This document shows positions 6,786 through 52,730 of a stretch of 64,000 bases of DNA, in pieces. Source of the DNA: Solidesulfovibrio alcoholivorans DSM 5433 (GTDB lineage: Bacteria; Desulfobacterota; Desulfovibrionia; Desulfovibrionales; Desulfovibrionaceae); the NCBI RefSeq assembly GCF_000702665.1, contig NZ_JNJA01000007.1, positions 124,001-188,000 of the forward strand. Reading direction: 5' to 3'. Under the pieces are notes generated by a model. The model saw only the letters and a list, made by a program, of their open reading frames with translations, made no database searches and was not told the DNA's origin. The position numbers were made by a program, and so were the translations under genes. Each line of letters starts with the position of its first letter. The first letter of the stretch is position 1.

Positions 6786-8447
6786 ATGGAAGTCTTTCCC
6801 CGAGAAAAACCCGACCGCCGCTTCCTGCCGGACATCCCTTCCAAGGGAGCCACACGCCGCACCTATGACACCCGCTACTTTTCCGAAGGCAAGGCGGACG
6901 TCTATTCCGAAGACGGCAAGTACCGCGACTGCTCGGGCAACGTGGTCAACCTGTCCCAGGGCGGCATGTTGCTTTCGCCGGACAAGAAACTGCGCGTAGG
7001 ACAAAAGGCCATGCTGCGTTTCTTCCTGAACGCCGGCACCATGCCCGAAGGCTACGAATCCTACCTCAAGCTGCCCGCCACCGTCGTACGCGTGGATTCC
7101 GCCACAGGCCACGCGGCCTTCCAATTTGAACGGACCATCACCGAGAGCCTGCGCCGTCGGCGCTGGCGCTATTTCGAGGCGGCGGCCCTGCTCGGCATCA
7201 TGCTGGCGCTCATCGGCGTCTGGTTCATCAAAAAGGAAAGCATCTTCTACTTCTGGTTCGACGTGCCGGTCTTCCTCTACGGCCTGTGCGCCCTGTTCTA
7301 CCTGCTGTCGCGGTTCTTCTTCGCCGCCCTGTACCGGCCCTATCCGGCGGACGTGAACTTCACCCCGAGCGTGAGCATCATCGTTCCCTGCTTCAACGAA
7401 GAGAAATGGATCGAGCGCACCGTGCGCGGCTGCCTCAACCAGCACTATCCCGAGGAACTCCTGGAAGTGATCGTGGTGGACGACGGCAGCACCGACGGTT
7501 CCGTGGCCGCGCTCAAGGCCGTGCGGGACAAAGTCTATGACGAAGTGGGCGAACGGCTCATCATCCACGTCTTCCCCGAGAACCGGGGCAAACGCCACGC
7601 CATGGCCGCCGGGGCGCGCCGGGCCAAGGGCGACGTCATCGTGTTCGTGGATTCCGACAGCTTCCTCCAGCCCGATTCCGTGCTCCAGGTGGTGCAGCCG
7701 CTCAAGGACCAGCGCGTGGGCGCGGCCACGGGCCGGTGCGAGGTGGAAAACAAGTGGACCAACATGCTCACGCGCATGCAGGCCGTGCGCTACTTCGTGG
7801 GCTTTCGCATCTTCAAGGCGGCCGAGAGCATCTTCGACGTGGTGACCTGCCTCTCCGGCCCCCTGGCCTCCTACCGCCGCGACGTGCTCATGCGCTACCT
7901 CGACACCTGGGAACACCAGACCTACCTCGGCCAGCCCGCCACCTTCGGCGACGACCGCAGCCTCACCAACTACGTCCTCGGCAGCCATTACGCCGTGTAC
8001 CAGCACACGGCCGTGACCCACACCATCGTCCCCTCGACCTACAGCAAGTTCTTCAGCCAGCAGATGCGCTGGAAACGGTCCTGGCTGCGGGAGAGCCTGC
8101 GGGCCTGCCTTTTCATGTGGAAAAAAGAGCCCTTCATGGCCATCTCCTTCTACCTGGGCTTCCTGCTGCCGGTCCTGGCCCCGGTGGTGGTGCTGCGGGC
8201 CTTCGTCTTCATGCCGTGGGCCTATGGCATCTGGCCGGTCACGTACATCGCTGGCGTGTTTTTCATGAGCATGCTCATGTGCACGTCCTACCTCTTCCTC
8301 AAACGCTCAAATCTCTGGTTCTACGGCGTGCCCTTCTGCTTCTTCTACCTGTTCGTCCTGTTGTGGCAGATCGTCTGGGCCGTGTTGACATTCTGGAAGT
8401 CTTCATGGGGCACCAGGCCCTCGCACTTTGATTCCGAAGCGCATTAG
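6786..8447 (+). CDS. PilZ domain-fused family 2 glycosyltransferase (exopolysaccharide synthase)
   Basis: A 553-aa membrane synthase. Residues about 23-120 form a PilZ c-di-GMP-binding domain (an Arg-rich start, RRTYDTR, and NLSQGG matching the D/NxSxxG motif). Two membrane spans follow (about 133-185). The GT-A catalytic domain (about 200-430) has DDGSTDGS, the DSD metal motif, a GDD acceptor-base motif and QQMRW (QxxRW), the hallmarks of processive GT2 enzymes such as PgaC, Alg8 and hyaluronan synthase. Further spans close the channel. It presumably polymerises and translocates a sugar polymer from UDP-sugars under c-di-GMP control, combining regulator and synthase in one chain. It heads a tight operon reaching 17697. 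The polymer identity is not determinable. Confidence 0.88.
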   Translation: MEVFPREKPDRRFLPDIPSKGATRRTYDTRYFSEGKADVYSEDGKYRDCSGNVVNLSQGGMLLSPDKKLRVGQKAMLRFFLNAGTMPEGYESYLKLPATVVRVDSATGHAAFQFERTITESLRRRRWRYFEAAALLGIMLALIGVWFIKKESIFYFWFDVPVFLYGLCALFYLLSRFFFAALYRPYPADVNFTPSVSIIVPCFNEEKWIERTVRGCLNQHYPEELLEVIVVDDGSTDGSVAALKAVRDKVYDEVGERLIIHVFPENRGKRHAMAAGARRAKGDVIVFVDSDSFLQPDSVLQVVQPLKDQRVGAATGRCEVENKWTNMLTRMQAVRYFVGFRIFKAAESIFDVVTCLSGPLASYRRDVLMRYLDTWEHQTYLGQPATFGDDRSLTNYVLGSHYAVYQHTAVTHTIVPSTYSKFFSQQMRWKRSWLRESLRACLFMWKKEPFMAISFYLGFLLPVLAPVVVLRAFVFMPWAYGIWPVTYIAGVFFMSMLMCTSYLFLKRSNLWFYGVPFCFFYLFVLLWQIVWAVLTFWKSSWGTRPSHFDSEAH

Positions 8448-47277: not shown

Positions 47278-47658
47278 ATGAACGAACGTCTTGCAACACT
47301 CTCCCGCGAGCGCAAAATCGCCCACAAACGCCTGCTCGACCTGCATTCGCCCGTGTACGCGGCCTTTTGCGACATGGAACGCGCCGCCTACGGCGACGGG
47401 GCCCTGGCCAAGATGGAAAAGGAACTCATCGCCGTGGGCATTTCCGTGGTCATCGACTGTCATTCCTGCATGCAGTGGCACATCGAGCAGGCGGCCGCGT
47501 CCGGGGCCGGCGTGCGCCAGGTGCTCGAGGCGGTGGAGGTCGGCATCGAGATGGGCGGCGGCCCGGCCACGGTTTCGGCCCGGTTCGCCCTGGAGGTCAT
47601 GGAAGACGTCTTCGGCGCGGACGCCCTGCGCGAGGCGGGCCGGGAGGCCGGCGCGTGA
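47278..47658 (+). CDS. AhpD-like carboxymuconolactone decarboxylase family protein
   Basis: The 126-aa helical protein carries DCHSCMQWHI, the CxxCxxxH redox motif of AhpD-type alkylhydroperoxidases within the CMD family, followed by the AAASGAGVRQVLEAVEVGIEMGGGPA helix pair. It probably acts as a small disulfide-linked peroxidase or redox partner. ATG 47278 follows GAGG by six bases. It is separated from the previous gene by a terminator and stands alone. Confidence 0.83.
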   Translation: MNERLATLSRERKIAHKRLLDLHSPVYAAFCDMERAAYGDGALAKMEKELIAVGISVVIDCHSCMQWHIEQAAASGAGVRQVLEAVEVGIEMGGGPATVSARFALEVMEDVFGADALREAGREAGA

Positions 47659-47785
47659 GGCAGGGTGGCAGGTCGAAAATGCCGCAGAAAGGGCCAGTGA
47701 CCGACATTTTGTAATACACGTGAGAGTAGATCGTGCAGCCAAAAACACTATCAGCCTGGAATTGAAGATGAAATAATTACAACTG

Positions 47786-47862
47786 TCCGGTTGTCTCCCC
47801 TTTTCGGCCCGGCGTATCCTTACGGCTTGTGCGCCGTAGCCGCAATTGTGGGGACAACCGGA
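47786..47862 (+). promoter_or_regulatory. Structured leader upstream of the metal-chelate ABC operon
   Basis: TCCGGTTGTC (47786-47795) pairs with GACAACCGGA (47853-47862), extended by C/G pairs past a bulge. It encloses a TACGGC/GCCGTA hairpin (47821-47826 with 47833-47838). It ends about 70 bases before the binding-protein ATG. I see no B12 box or other recognisable riboswitch core. The remainder of 47659-47930 holds only AT-rich candidate promoter sequence near 47760-47785. Confidence 0.45.
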
Positions 47863-47930
47863 CCGCCTGGCCCGGCCTGCGACGGACGGCGCGGAATTGT
47901 GAAACGCCCTACGCCAGAAGGAGACCGGTC

Positions 47931-48992
47931 ATGCGCTTTCGTTTCCTCACCCGTTCCACGCTGCTCCCGGCCCTTGTACTGGCCCTGGCCTGCTGCGCCT
48001 TCGGGCAGGCGCTGGCGGCGACGTTCACGGACGCCTCCGGCGCGACCGTCGCCGTGCCCGATGCGCCCAGACGCGTGTACGCCCTGTCCCCGCCGGATGC
48101 GCTCCTCGTCTTCGCCATCGATCCCTGCCGGCTGGTCGGCTGGAATATGCCCCAGACGCCCGTGGCCAAGCAGTGGTATCCGCCGTGCGCCCGCGACCTG
48201 CCGGTCCTCGGCGGCTTTTTCGGCCAGGGCATGACGCCCAACAAGGAAGCCCTGCTCAAGGCCGCGCCGGACCTCGTCATAAGCGGCACCATGGCCAAGT
48301 CCAACAAGGAGTTCGACAGCTTCTTCACCAGCCTCGGCATTCCGGTCGTGCACATCGAAAGCGGCACCGTGGCCGACTATCCCAAGGCCCTGCGCCAGCT
48401 CGGAACGCTCCTTGGCGACAAGGAACGCGGCGAGAAGCTCGCCGCGTATGCCGGCGAAACCCTGGAGGCGATCCGCAAGGGCGTGGCCTCCATCCCCGAG
48501 GCCAAGCGCGTGCGCGTCTACTACGCCGAAGGCGAGGACGGGCTTGCCACCGACGGCCAGGGTTCGTTCCACACGCAGGTGCTGGAGATGGCCGGCGGCG
48601 TCAACGTGCACAAGACCCCGCAAACCCAGCGCTACGGCATGGACAAGGTCACCATGGAAACGGTGATCGGCTACGCGCCGCAAGTGATCCTGGCGCAAAC
48701 GCCCAAAGTCCGCGCCGCCATCCTCGCCTCACCCACCTGGAAGGTGGTGCCCGCGGTGCGTGACGGCAGGGTGCTCGGCCTGCCCGACACGCCCGTCAAC
48801 TGGTTCGACCGGCCGCCGTCGTTCATGCGCCTGCTCGCGCTCAAGTGGATGGCCCACGCCCTGTACCCGGACGTTTTTCCCTACGACATGGCCAGGGAGA
48901 CGCAGGCCTTCTTCAAGCTCTTCTGGAACAAGGACCTGGACGAGGCGCAGGCGCGCGCCCTGCTGTCACCGGCCGGGGCCGCCAAGCCATGA
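47931..48992 (+). CDS. Metal-chelate-type ABC transporter substrate-binding protein
   Basis: A 353-aa periplasmic protein with a signal peptide ending QALAA and the helical-backbone type III fold of BtuF/FepB-like binding proteins. TFTDASGATVAVPDAPRRV is the standard first strand, and AAPDLVISGTM and APQVILAQTP follow. It would bind an iron-, cobalamin- or molybdate-type complex and hand it to the permease. The C-terminal helices (FMRLLALKWMAHALYPDVF) resemble the end of the radical SAM fusion encoded in the same operon. The ATG follows AAGGAG. Its stop overlaps the permease start (ATGA). The ligand is unknown. Confidence 0.84.
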   Translation: MRFRFLTRSTLLPALVLALACCAFGQALAATFTDASGATVAVPDAPRRVYALSPPDALLVFAIDPCRLVGWNMPQTPVAKQWYPPCARDLPVLGGFFGQGMTPNKEALLKAAPDLVISGTMAKSNKEFDSFFTSLGIPVVHIESGTVADYPKALRQLGTLLGDKERGEKLAAYAGETLEAIRKGVASIPEAKRVRVYYAEGEDGLATDGQGSFHTQVLEMAGGVNVHKTPQTQRYGMDKVTMETVIGYAPQVILAQTPKVRAAILASPTWKVVPAVRDGRVLGLPDTPVNWFDRPPSFMRLLALKWMAHALYPDVFPYDMARETQAFFKLFWNKDLDEAQARALLSPAGAAKP

Positions 48993-50038
48993 CCCCGGAC
49001 CGGGACGTTACCGCGCAGGCCGCGTCCGGGACGCTCGCCGCGCCCTGGACGCTGGCCGTCCTGCTCGCCGCCGCGGCCGTCTGGTCGCTGACGGTCGGCA
49101 ACTACCCCATCTCGCTTGCCGACCAAGGGAAGTATCTCCTGCATGCGCTGGGCCTCGCGTCGCAGCCGGCCACGGAACAGACGAAGCTCGTCGCCGTGGT
49201 GCTCGGCGACATCCGCGCGCCGAGGCTCTTTGCCGCCGTGCTGATCGGCGCGGCCCTGTCCACCTCGGGCGCGGCCTACCAGTCCATGTTCGTCAACCCG
49301 CTCGTGTCGCCGGGGCTGCTCGGGGTGTTGGCCGGAGCGTCCTTCGGCGCGGCGTGCGGCATGCTCGCCGACCTCCCCTGGTCGGCCGTGCAGGGCTGCG
49401 CCTTTGCCGGGGGCATCCTCGCCGTGGGCCTGGCGCTCGGACTGGCACGCCTCAGTCGCGGCGACCGGCTGCTGCTGCTCGTCCTCGGCGGCGTCATCAG
49501 CACCGCGCTTTTCACGGCGCTGCTTTCCGCCGTCAAATACGTGGCCGACCCCACCAACCAGCTCCCGGCCATCACCTACTGGCTCATGGGCGGGCTGTCG
49601 CGGGCGGACAAGAATACGGTCATGCAGGCGACGCCGCTTTTCGCGTGCGGCATGGCCGGGCTGTTTCTTTTTTCCCGCCAGCTCGACCTGCTGAGCCTTG
49701 GCGACGAGCAGGCGCGCAGCCTGGGGCTTTCCGCCGGCAAGGTGCGGCTGTGGCTCATCGCCCTGTCCACGGTCTTAAGCGCCGCCACGGTCTCCATCGC
49801 CGGGCTGGTCGGCTGGGTGGGGCTCATCATCCCCCATGCCGGGCGGCTGCTGGTCGGGCCGTCCAACCGGCGGCTTCTGCCCACGGCCGCCCTGCTCGGC
49901 GGGCTGTACCTGCTGCTCGTGGACGACGTATCCCGGCTGGCGTTCGGCGTGGAGATTCCGCTCGGCATCCTCACGGCCCTGGCCGGCATCCCCTTTTTCC
50001 CGCTGGTGTTGCGCAATGCCCGCAAATCCTGGGGCTGA
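48989..50038 (+). CDS. FecCD-family ABC transporter permease
   Basis: A 349-aa inner-membrane permease of the FecCD/BtuC family with about ten spans. IRAPRLFAAVLIGAALSTSGAAYQSMFVNPLVSPGLLGV, GLVGWVGLIIPHAGR (ATPase contact) and EIPLGILTALAGIPFFPLVL are the family signatures. It forms the homodimeric channel for the substrate delivered by the binding protein. The gene overlaps its upstream neighbour and is followed one base later by the ATPase gene. Confidence 0.9.
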   Translation: MTPDRDVTAQAASGTLAAPWTLAVLLAAAAVWSLTVGNYPISLADQGKYLLHALGLASQPATEQTKLVAVVLGDIRAPRLFAAVLIGAALSTSGAAYQSMFVNPLVSPGLLGVLAGASFGAACGMLADLPWSAVQGCAFAGGILAVGLALGLARLSRGDRLLLLVLGGVISTALFTALLSAVKYVADPTNQLPAITYWLMGGLSRADKNTVMQATPLFACGMAGLFLFSRQLDLLSLGDEQARSLGLSAGKVRLWLIALSTVLSAATVSIAGLVGWVGLIIPHAGRLLVGPSNRRLLPTAALLGGLYLLLVDDVSRLAFGVEIPLGILTALAGIPFFPLVLRNARKSWG

Positions 50039-50039
50039 C

Positions 50040-50846
50040 ATGCCCGTCTTCACGGCGGAGAAGCTGGCCTTCGCCTACAACGGCGCACCGGTGCTGCGCG
50101 GGGTCTCGTTTGCGGTGGGCGCGGGGGAGCTCGTCTGCCTGCTCGGACCCAACGGCTGCGGCAAGACCACGCTTTTAAAGCTCCTGCTCGGCCTGCTGCC
50201 GCCAACGGCGGGGCGGGCGACGGTCGGCGGCCGGCCGGCCCACGCCCTGCCGCCCCGGGAACTGGCCGCGGCCGTGGCCTACGTGCCGCAGGCGCACCAG
50301 GCCGCCTTCGCCTACACCGCGCTCGACATCGTGCTCATGGGCCGCGCCGCCAGATCGTTGTGCTTCGGCCCGCCGCGCGCCGCGGACAGGGACATCGCCA
50401 TGGACGCCCTGCGCCGCTTTTCCATCGACCACCTCGCGGGCAAGCCCGTCACGCAATTGAGCGGTGGCCAGCGCCAGCTGACCCTGCTCGCCCGCGCCCT
50501 GGCCCAGGGCGCGCGGGCGCTGGTGCTCGACGAGCCCGTCACCGGCCTCGACTTCGGCCACCAGGCGAAGTTCCTCGAAATCCTGCGCGAACTGTGCGCC
50601 GAGGGCTACACCTGCGTCATGACCACGCACTTCCCGGACCATGCCCTGTGGGTAGCCGACCGTGTGCTCATGCTGCGCGGGGGCCGCATCGTGGCCGACG
50701 GCGCGCCCGAGGCGGTGGTCACGGGCGAGCTGCTCGGCCGCCTCTACGGCGTGGACATATCCGTTTTCCCCATTGCCGCGTCCCTGCGGGTCTGCGTCCC
50801 GGACCGGATCAGCCGGTTGTGCCGGGACGCGGCCGGGGGCGCATAA
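50040..50846 (+). CDS. FepC/BtuD-type ABC transporter ATPase
   Basis: A 268-aa ATPase with Walker A GPNGCGKTT, the AAAVAYVPQAHQAAFAYTALDIVLMGR segment typical of chelate importers, signature LSGGQRQLTLLARAL, Walker B LVLDEPVTGLDFG and switch His MTTHFPDHAL. It powers the importer. The stop is followed directly by AAGGAG and the radical SAM gene, so the four genes form one operon. Confidence 0.9.
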   Translation: MPVFTAEKLAFAYNGAPVLRGVSFAVGAGELVCLLGPNGCGKTTLLKLLLGLLPPTAGRATVGGRPAHALPPRELAAAVAYVPQAHQAAFAYTALDIVLMGRAARSLCFGPPRAADRDIAMDALRRFSIDHLAGKPVTQLSGGQRQLTLLARALAQGARALVLDEPVTGLDFGHQAKFLEILRELCAEGYTCVMTTHFPDHALWVADRVLMLRGGRIVADGAPEAVVTGELLGRLYGVDISVFPIAASLRVCVPDRISRLCRDAAGGA

Positions 50847-50856
50847 GGAGCCTCCC

Positions 50857-52650
50857 ATGCAGTGTCCCGTCTGCGCGCGCGGCTGCGTGCTCGCGCCCGG
50901 CAAAAGCGGCGCCTGCGGCCGCTACGTCCTTAAGGACGATGCGCTTGTCGAGCGCTATCCCGACCGCTACCTGATCGCCAGCCCCATCTCCGTGGAGACG
51001 ATTCCGCTTTTGCATTTCCATCCCGGCGCGCCGTTTTTCCAGATCAGCACGGTGGGCTGCAATTTCGACTGCCCGGGCTGCATCGCCACGGTCACGGCGC
51101 GGGAGATGCGCCCCGACAGCCCGGCGCTCATGCGGCTCACGCCGGAAGCCGTCGTGGACAGGGCCGTCGCAAAGGACTGCCGGGGCATCGCCTTTCTCAT
51201 GAACGACCCCCTGGCCTCCTATTACACGTTCCTGCGCGTGGCCCGCGTCGCCAAGGCGCGGGGGCTCATGGTCGCCTGCGCCACCAACGCCTACTTCACC
51301 GAGGCCTCCCTTGCGCCGCTGCTCACGCTGCTCGACGCCGTCAACATCGGCGTCAAGGGCGCGGGCCCGGACGGCATCCGCGCCTGCGGCGGCGGCGATC
51401 CGCAGGTGGTCCTCGGCAACATCCGCGCGCTCGTGGCCGCGGGCGTGCACGTGGAGGTCGCCTGCATGGACCGCCTGGACAACCGCGACGACACGCGGCT
51501 GCTCGCGCGCACCCTGGCGGCGATTTCCCCGGCCATGCCGCTCCAGCTCATGCGCTACGTGCCCATCGAAACGGCCGACCCGGCCCTCGAGCCGGCCATC
51601 GCCGACACCGAGGCTTTTGCGCGGGAGCTGCGGCGCACCCTGCCCCACACCTTCGTCTTCAACACCCCGGGCACACGCGGCCTGGACACGCTCTGCCCGG
51701 ACTGCGGCGCGCCTGTCGTCGCCCGCGACTTCTACGGCCCCATGGGCGCGCGGCTGCTTTCGCTGGCCCCGGGCGTTCCGGACGACGCCGTGCGCTGTGG
51801 CCGCTGCGGCAGGGACGCGGCCATCGCCGGCCCGGTTTCGCCGCCGGCCATGCGCGAAGGGGCGTTCCAGGGCGGCTACCCGTTCACGCGGGGCCTTGAG
51901 ATCGTGGAATCCATGTGCCTGGCCATGGGCGTGCGCGAGCAGGCGGAGGTCGTGCGCGCCTTCGAGCATCTGCTCGGCGAGGGCATGCTCACGCGCCTGC
52001 ACCACGACATCCAACATATCGACGGCTATTTCGGGCTGATCCGCCATTTCGGCAAGGCGCTCGGCCGCGAGGCCCAGGCGGCGCGGCTGACGGACTACCT
52101 GACGGCCATGATCGAGCCCGTCCGGCAAGGCGTAACCGGTGTCGCGCATCGCCCCCGGGCCTACTACGCCATGGGCAAGCCGCTTTTCGCCATCATGGGC
52201 TCGCGCTTCGAAAACCACCTCGTGGGCGTGGCCGGCGGGGAGAGCTGCAACACGACGCTCGACCTCAAGGGCCGGCCTGGGCGCAGCATCACCCCGGAGA
52301 CCTTGGAAAAGCTCGATCCCGAGGTCATGTTCATCTCCTCGTTTCTCTCCAATACCCCGGAGGCCTTTCTCGCGGACTGCCGCGCCCTGGGCATCGACGT
52401 CGCGGCGGTGCGCGACGGGCGCGTCTTCACATCCCCCGTGCCGGCAAGCGACTTCGGCGCGCCCAAGTGGGTGCTCGGACTACGCTTCTTAGCCAACAAG
52501 CTGCACCCGGACCGGTTCGCTTTCGACATCGAGGCGGATGCGGCCGCGTATCACCAACAGTTTTTCGGCGTGGCGTATCCCCTGGCCACGGTCAACCGCT
52601 CCTTTGCCAAGCCGAGCCGTCTGTGGCGGTTCGACGCGGCCCGGGCATAG
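50857..52650 (+). CDS. Radical SAM protein fused to a periplasmic-binding-protein-like domain
   Basis: A 597-aa cytoplasmic protein with no signal peptide. It opens with a Cys-rich knuckle (CPVCARGCVL, then GACGRY) like PflA/AmmeMemoRadiSam-type enzymes. The radical SAM cluster motif CNFDCPGC (CxxxCxxC) follows at about residue 69. Residues about 280-325 hold two CxxC pairs (LCPDCG, RCGRCG), a probable metal-binding insert. From about 430 to 590 the sequence turns into a helical-backbone binding-protein fold (FAIMGSRFENHLVG, KLDPEVMFISSF, VLGLRFLANKLHPDRF) related to the binding protein encoded three genes upstream. I infer that it binds the imported metal complex inside the cell and modifies or uses it by radical chemistry. 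A terminator follows. Confidence 0.78.
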   Translation: MQCPVCARGCVLAPGKSGACGRYVLKDDALVERYPDRYLIASPISVETIPLLHFHPGAPFFQISTVGCNFDCPGCIATVTAREMRPDSPALMRLTPEAVVDRAVAKDCRGIAFLMNDPLASYYTFLRVARVAKARGLMVACATNAYFTEASLAPLLTLLDAVNIGVKGAGPDGIRACGGGDPQVVLGNIRALVAAGVHVEVACMDRLDNRDDTRLLARTLAAISPAMPLQLMRYVPIETADPALEPAIADTEAFARELRRTLPHTFVFNTPGTRGLDTLCPDCGAPVVARDFYGPMGARLLSLAPGVPDDAVRCGRCGRDAAIAGPVSPPAMREGAFQGGYPFTRGLEIVESMCLAMGVREQAEVVRAFEHLLGEGMLTRLHHDIQHIDGYFGLIRHFGKALGREAQAARLTDYLTAMIEPVRQGVTGVAHRPRAYYAMGKPLFAIMGSRFENHLVGVAGGESCNTTLDLKGRPGRSITPETLEKLDPEVMFISSFLSNTPEAFLADCRALGIDVAAVRDGRVFTSPVPASDFGAPKWVLGLRFLANKLHPDRFAFDIEADAAAYHQQFFGVAYPLATVNRSFAKPSRLWRFDAARA

Positions 52651-52667: not shown

Positions 52668-52700
52668 ACAAAGCCCCCGTCAAAAGGCGGGGGCTTTGTC
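52668..52700. terminator. Bidirectional hairpin terminator between the radical SAM and SGNH genes
   Basis: ACAAAGCCCCCG (52668-52679) pairs with CGGGGGCTTTGT (52688-52699). The A/T-rich outer pairs suit termination from both sides of this convergent pair. Confidence 0.75.
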
Positions 52701-52730
52701 CTGCATCGGGCAGGCCGTTTCGACGCGGCC

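Follow-up and report, generated by a model that had tools for sequence, protein, structure and literature searches.

A radical SAM enzyme fused to a truncated binding-protein domain, its importer operon, and a probable link to molybdenum and tungsten in anaerobic bacteria

Introduction

Siderophore-like uptake is well known for iron. In oxygen-free, sulfide-rich habitats, molybdenum and tungsten are held in poorly available forms, and TunR is reportedly the subject of tungstate-regulon work in sulfate reducers. The closest described importer to the one reported here is MolBCA (HI1470-1472), the type II molybdate/tungstate importer of Haemophilus influenzae (MolA structures 3psa/3psh), which is of the same BtuCD class. 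To our knowledge, MolBCA is accompanied by neither a radical SAM enzyme nor a TonB receptor. A further relative, 4pag, is a solved solute-binding protein of Sulfurospirillum deleyianum that belongs to the family of our operon's binding protein and, unlike the domain described below, stands alone; the record titles seen for it name no ligand.

On the enzyme side, the closest NCBIfam model is that of the AmmeMemoRadiSam radical SAM proteins (TIGR04337), a 349-residue model without a binding-protein domain whose members are encoded in another operon. Its N-terminal region and core align with residues 1-295 of the 597-residue fusion protein, which carries such a domain, at 94.8 bits against a curated cutoff of 220 bits, a score that leaves the fusion outside that family. 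A third point of comparison is the set of genes under the Moco/Tuco riboswitch (RF01055, PMC2408646), the same riboswitch that heads Geobacter-type and Bacillota fusion operons. This RNA senses the molybdenum or tungsten cofactor, not the transported species; RF01055 copies without P3 are of the tungsten-cofactor type and those with P3 of the molybdenum type (PMC2408646). Neither radical SAM nor FmdE came up in a text search of that article, Regulski et al. 2008 (PMC2408646). In the open-licence literature that we searched, we found no paper on this fusion or its system.

Here, we describe an importer operon of Solidesulfovibrio alcoholivorans DSM 5433, located in a 64,000-nucleotide stretch of DNA (hereafter, the window), whose last gene encodes a radical SAM enzyme with a C-terminal binding-protein-type domain.

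Results

The fusion gene starts with ATG behind an AAGGAG Shine-Dalgarno sequence, 10 bp past the ATPase stop codon (Table 1). The radical SAM model PF04055 matches residues 64-199 (E 9.6e-14, 52.3 bits against a cutoff of 29.5), and the C68-x3-C72-x2-C75 motif within this domain, which assigns the protein to the radical SAM superfamily by sequence, is invariant in 26 aligned orthologs, so that the site proposed by the first-pass annotation holds up. At the level of fold only, the modelled core resembles PFL activase (3cb8, VIA Z 19.2, 220 residues) and NifB (Z 16.6); no glycyl-radical partner or nif context was seen around the fusion. The proposed two-CxxC insert is likewise real, with C280/C283 invariant and C314/C317 kept in more than 90% of the ortholog alignment. 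The first-pass annotation had not listed a third cysteine set at the N-terminus (C3, C6, C10 and C20), all four of which are invariant in 26/26 orthologs and lie in the region covered by the TIGR04337 match. At the other end, the orthologs share the signature NRSFxKP (N580, S582, F583, K585 and P586 invariant), which was not found in standalone binding proteins in the profile alignment of fused against standalone domains. Hydrophobicity stays at or below 1.7 (KD, 12-residue window) at the N-terminus of all 26 fusion proteins, whereas 38 of 44 standalone binding proteins reach at least 2.0 on the same scale. The predicted lack of an export signal, already noted at first pass, sets the fusion protein apart from class III binding proteins, which are extracytoplasmic.

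Table 1. Positions in the window of the importer operon, its flanking elements and the parts of the fusion protein
Feature	Position	Strand	Basis
Promoter-like element ACTGTCCGGTTGTCTC...TATCCT (-35-like TTGTCT, 18-nt spacer, -10-like TATCCT)	47782..47820	+	function inferred
Periplasmic class III binding protein, 353 aa, N-terminal export signal, MolA/4pag-type	47931..48992	+	PF01497 E 2.5e-23
BtuC/FecCD-type permease, 349 aa, 4-bp overlap with binding-protein stop	48989..50038	+	ORF, translation
ABC ATPase, FecE/BtuD type	50040..50846	+	PF00005 E 2.9e-29
Radical SAM enzyme with C-terminal binding-protein-type domain, 597 aa	50857..52650	+	ORF, Pfam, alignment, AF2 model
N-terminal C3-x2-C6-x3-C10-x9-C20, candidate metal/cluster site	50863..50916	+	invariance; TIGR04337 match
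Radical SAM core, residues 58-240; CxxxCxxC at residues 68-75 (51058-51081)	51028..51576	+	PF04055; structure match
Two-CxxC module, C280/C283 and C314/C317	51694..51807	+	ortholog alignment
Cytoplasmic class III binding-protein-type domain, residues ~336-577, N-lobe truncated	51862..52587	+	hhalign; structure match
C-terminal signature NRSFxKP, residues 580-586	52594..52614	+	ortholog alignment
Strong inverted repeat AAAGCCCCCGTCAAAAGGCGGGGGCTTT, probable operon-end terminator	52668..52703	+	sequence; scan lists part on - strand

The fusion gene closes a run of four same-direction genes (binding protein, permease, ATPase, fusion) in which neighbours overlap or lie no more than 10 bp apart, and the genes at 47931-52650 read as a single four-gene importer operon. 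Importer genes recur beside the fusion at other loci, which bears out the importer context first recognised in the window. In phmmer searches, the operon's binding protein matches 4pag (2.7e-64) and MolA/HI1472 (3psa, 6.4e-14), and it may, like MolA, bind molybdate. The permease we take to be of the BtuC/FecCD type from its homology to neighbours in other loci. With a MolA-related binding protein, a BtuCD-class permease and an ATPase, the predicted importer is of the MolBCA type. It does not qualify as a BtuFCD B12 importer, the BtuF equivalog model NF002894 giving 52.2 bits against a cutoff of 234, and the ATPase falls under the cutoff of all NCBIfam heme, F420-0 and corrinoid ATPase models. 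The operon holds neither a TonB receptor gene nor a molybdenum gene. Just upstream, 47278-47658 (+) encodes a 126-aa carboxymuconolactone decarboxylase/AhpD-family protein that is probably a separate unit.

The promoter-like element before the operon was not called by a consensus promoter scan. It is also found in loci L003 and L004 and before a second binding protein-methyltransferase pair of the window's genome, and the window operon is its sole site in that genome with 0 mismatches. We rejected the element as a regulon marker: it has 19 genome sites at up to two mismatches, against 6 for a control, and a site with one mismatch adjoins an integrase and no promoter of interest. A strong hairpin spans the operon promoter region (47785-47866, TCCGGTTGTCTCC ... 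GGGGACAACCGGA). The hairpin is not conserved in L003, though the promoter-like element is, and a conserved riboswitch is therefore unlikely; an Rfam search of the leader gave no match near the gathering score. At L004 (Desulfovibrio sp. DV), the binding-protein gene is cut to its first ~60-70 codons, comprising the signal peptide and N-terminus (7789-8001, +), and the fusion gene follows this remnant directly, the promoter-like element being shared and the importer genes between missing. This arrangement is either a natural deletion or an assembly error.

Three routes make the BtuF/TroA-type relation of the C-terminal domain firm: BLASTP against the operon's binding protein (26% over 262 aa, E 7e-18); profile-profile comparison with standalone binding proteins (hhalign, E 1.2e-28, 211 columns), in which the end motifs that the first-pass annotation had read as parallel do align; and structure matches of AF2 models, which reach pLDDT 89 and pTM 0.90 for the whole protein and pLDDT 87 for the domain by itself. 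The best structural match is the ABC binding protein 4hn9 (VIA Z 20.9, 215 residues), MolA matches at Z 17.8 over 222 residues, and the domain folded alone still has a class III binding protein as its best match (Z 20.6, 216 residues). With its long backbone helix and its matches to solved members, the modelled domain has the class III (TroA/BtuF, cluster A) fold anticipated at first pass, although its extent, originally given as residues 430-597, is corrected to ~336-577.

The domain is nevertheless predicted to lack one of the two complete lobes of this class. In the profile alignment, residues 1-129 of the standalone proteins, including the N-lobe β-strands, have no counterpart, and the AF2 model of the fusion protein contains helices only, with no strand, across residues 331-433. 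Since the first ~130 residues, most of the N-lobe, are missing, the fused domain retains the backbone helix, with helices 388-401 and 405-426 leading into the C-lobe, and the C-lobe itself; the Peripla_BP_2 model (PF01497) scores 16.7 at residues 389-526, under its cutoff of 27.5. The radical SAM barrel may occupy the position of the missing N-lobe. The idea of a binding-protein fold on each side of the membrane thus survives as regards the cytoplasmic domain and the importer operon, but the domain is N-truncated and not a full clamshell. In segments that align, the conserved residues differ (YYAEGxxGLxT...SxH in standalone proteins against YYAMGKPLF...RxEN in the fused domain), and a ligand shared with the importer's binding protein is therefore plausible at most.

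The fusion is conserved along its whole length. The 26 orthologs align end to end with a mean column identity of 59%. The radical core is invariant at 20% of its positions and the binding-protein-type domain at 16%, a value that implies strong constraint on the latter. Its invariant residues group in the motifs GGYPxTR, RxEN, GRPG and DFGxPxW. A first scan found the full-length fusion in 28 loci at 42-95% identity, and the anaerobes that carry it belong to at least five phyla (Thermodesulfobacteriota, Bacillota, Campylobacterota, Chlorobiota and Deferribacterota). The presence of dozens of full-length fusions in separate genomes rules out a sequencing joint of two genes. The distribution is patchy: 4/59 genomes of the window's family and 8/395 of its phylum, 5/127 of one Geobacter-type order, 5/299 Bacillota, and 9/56 of a Syntrophomonas-type order. 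One in-frame TAG occurs in the fusion gene at L047 (8640-11030, -), reflecting a pseudogene, an assembly error or read-through.

A quick tree (LG+G4) was built from 45 fused domains and 46 standalone proteins, with two outgroups from the same genome. It groups every fused domain in a single clade (SH-aLRT 100) and places the binding protein of the window operon elsewhere, in a clade made up of 40 standalone proteins (support 98). The fused domain, which the first-pass annotation had taken for a copy of the importer's binding protein, is therefore part of an old fusion and not such a copy, and a recent duplication of the operon's gene as its source is ruled out. In sequence terms, the architecture is old and widespread, and the supposed copy is a truncated domain belonging to a separate clade. 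A single fusion event that preceded the spread over five phyla is the simplest explanation.

Riboswitches of relatives link the system to molybdenum and tungsten. Among whole genomes, 21 bear RF01055 and contain 25 fusion genes. For 10 of these genes, a same-strand RF01055 copy lies no more than 6 kb upstream, where 0.166 such cases would be expected (P 3.7e-15, a value that treats kin genomes as independent, G732 and G929 being near-identical here). The distances are 0.9-5.5 kb, with recognised system genes in between in nearly all ten cases, which span the Geobacter-type order, the Syntrophomonas-type order and one other Bacillota genome. Rfam scans place RF01055 at the head of the fusion operons of L028, L049, L050, L051, L056, L057, L058 and L065, and it likewise occurs at those of G929 and G937. 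Two Moco-II RNAs lie upstream of the fusion gene in L006, and all three genomic RF01055 copies of G084 fall within 17 kb around its fusion gene. At L057, separate riboswitches head DUF364-ModA-ModB-WtpC and DUF364-BtuC-BtuD-BtuF-methyltransferase-fusion. By the P3 rule, the RNAs of L028, L050 and L051 are of the tungsten-cofactor type (no P3) and those of L057 and L065 of the molybdenum type (P3 present). More broadly, several Moco riboswitches at L028 (4038-16046) and L057 (14603-18630) head DUF364, TonB, ModABC and XdhC genes within 20 kb.

Neighbouring genes and binding-protein kinship point the same way. A Clostridium copy of the fusion adjoins ModA (above cutoff), ModB and a WtpC-like ATPase; Sulfurospirillum fusion loci have a ModE regulator nearby and carry 4pag-type binding proteins; and the profile of the operon-type binding-protein family matches 4pag at 1e-132 and, as its nearest functionally characterised relative, MolA at 1.3e-38. 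Overall, a molybdenum and/or tungsten role of the fusion system is a well-supported inference, and the imported metal complex suggested at first pass can very probably be narrowed to these metals from the riboswitches and Mod neighbours of relatives. RF01055 was not found in the window's own genome or in three searched fusion-bearing relatives of its family, and that genome also encodes classical ModA proteins; for the window copy, the link to these metals therefore runs through orthology and binding-protein kinship, from which it would serve the same metals as its riboswitch-bearing relatives. We rejected a cobalamin link, as the sole cobalamin riboswitch seen lies 3' of the fusion gene (L047). 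On contig 3 of the window's genome, two ModA pairs with identical scores and opposite orientation (~233-239 kb and 430-436 kb) are either an inverted duplication or an assembly artefact, the contamination of the assembly being listed as 7.78%.

Partners were counted by BLAST to reference neighbours within 8 kb of the fusion at 51 loci, and the counts are rough lower bounds, since many contigs end near the fusion gene. A class III binding protein is found at 32/51 loci, a BtuD ATPase at 26/51, a BtuC permease at 24/51, a TonB receptor at 14/51, DUF364 at 12/51 and FmdE at 7/51; one methyltransferase family lies beside the fusion at 32/51 loci, or 36/51 when a second family is included. Four loci (L002, L004, L062 and L063) have the fusion without an adjacent importer. 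The methyltransferase gene is not in the window operon and sits on another contig of the same genome, where a 207-aa protein, 73% identical to the methyltransferase inside the L003 operon, adjoins another class III binding protein that shares 61% identity with the window's (L035 7993-9768, -, contig 6). Because the promoter element ACTGTCNNGTTGYC is common to both places, the system of the window is apparently divided between two loci.

The same genome encodes a shorter paralog of the radical SAM enzyme, with 335 aa, 32% identity to the fusion and no binding-protein domain. Its cluster (L037 6407-14240, -, contig 1, ~666-674 kb) includes a TonB receptor, an ECF-type ATPase, a CbiQ-type T component, a probable S component, a methyltransferase of the same kind and a 380-aa protein that neither Pfam nor NCBIfam models match; the cluster is kept in a congener (L067 3967-11983). 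ECF-type importers use no binding protein of the class III kind. The domain-free paralog adjoins an ECF-type importer, and the fused domain therefore appears to go with binding-protein-dependent import; this single contrast, within one genus, suggests that it recognises what the importer's binding protein brings.

Discussion

Given the observed architecture and fold, the operon and its recurring partners, the conservation and single origin of the fusion, and the riboswitches of relatives, we tentatively favour the interpretation that the fusion protein works in the cytoplasm as the enzyme of a system by which anaerobic bacteria acquire molybdenum and tungsten, and that it tailors an imported ligand. 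In this proposal, shortage of the molybdenum or tungsten cofactor would derepress the operon, the usual sense of RF01055. An outer-membrane TonB receptor, where present, and the BtuCDF/MolBCA-type importer would bring in a molybdenum or tungsten species, probably a chelate and not only the bare oxyanion. The N-truncated domain, with its backbone helix and C-lobe, would bind the imported species, docking the complex or its organic ligand beside the radical SAM barrel. The barrel and the partner class I methyltransferase would then modify the ligand, breaking it down or tailoring it, and the metal would be freed for cofactor synthesis.

Most of the same evidence is explained by the main rival, a possible but less probable account in which the fusion enzyme and the methyltransferase, together with DUF364 and FmdE where present, make a secreted molybdenum/tungsten chelator and the TonB and BtuCDF components re-import the loaded complex, the fused domain holding a precursor or product. 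A radical SAM enzyme and a methyltransferase are a typical biosynthetic pair, and adjacency of the methyltransferase (36/51) is as strong as that of the importer. Furthermore, DUF364, proposed to act in chelator synthesis (PMC2954201), is among the neighbours, and induction under metal shortage fits equally. However, no exporter, NRPS or scaffold-building gene was recognised among the neighbours annotated, which are a part of all, the binding-protein fold is better suited to capturing a loaded complex, and the paralog adjoining the ECF importer lacks the domain.

A ligand of another kind, such as an iron siderophore, a corrinoid, heme or a nickel complex, with the riboswitches reflecting metabolic coupling, is improbable. 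It is true that this fold class also binds B12, heme, iron and nickel complexes and that the weak NCBIfam matches include BtuF and IsdE, but every B12 or heme model lies far under its cutoff, and the position of the only cobalamin riboswitch, the riboswitch association (P about 4e-15), the ModABC and ModE neighbours, and MolA as the nearest characterised binding protein all argue against it. Slightly less probable still is a sensor or regulator role, in which ligand occupancy of the domain would gate catalysis instead of delivering substrate: loss of the N-lobe sheet precludes a normal two-lobe trap and the conserved residues differ from those of the importer's binding protein, but conservation of the domain almost matches that of the catalytic core (16% vs 20% invariant), and the grouping of its invariant residues in the motifs GGYPxTR, RxEN, GRPG and DFGxPxW is what a substrate site would show.

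The system points to an undescribed way of obtaining molybdenum and tungsten which, if true, would be the counterpart for these metals of siderophore uptake; a dedicated chelate pathway of such a kind was not found in the open-licence literature. A more specific version, an anaerobic route for chelated molybdenum or tungsten in which a half-clamshell domain has its lost lobe replaced by the barrel and radical chemistry frees the metal, is speculative and on the whole unlikely. In any case, a conserved enzyme-importer set under molybdenum/tungsten-cofactor riboswitches offers concrete genes for the question of chelated forms of these metals, and suggests possible roles for DUF364 and FmdE, families still without a defined function. 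It would also represent the reuse of an extracytoplasmic binding-protein fold as a substrate or scaffold domain in a cytoplasmic radical enzyme. Four Geobacter-type loci (L050, L051, L053 and L054) carry a second, more diverged fusion subfamily (~36% identity) without GGYPxTR, and in two of them a Moco riboswitch lies shortly upstream.
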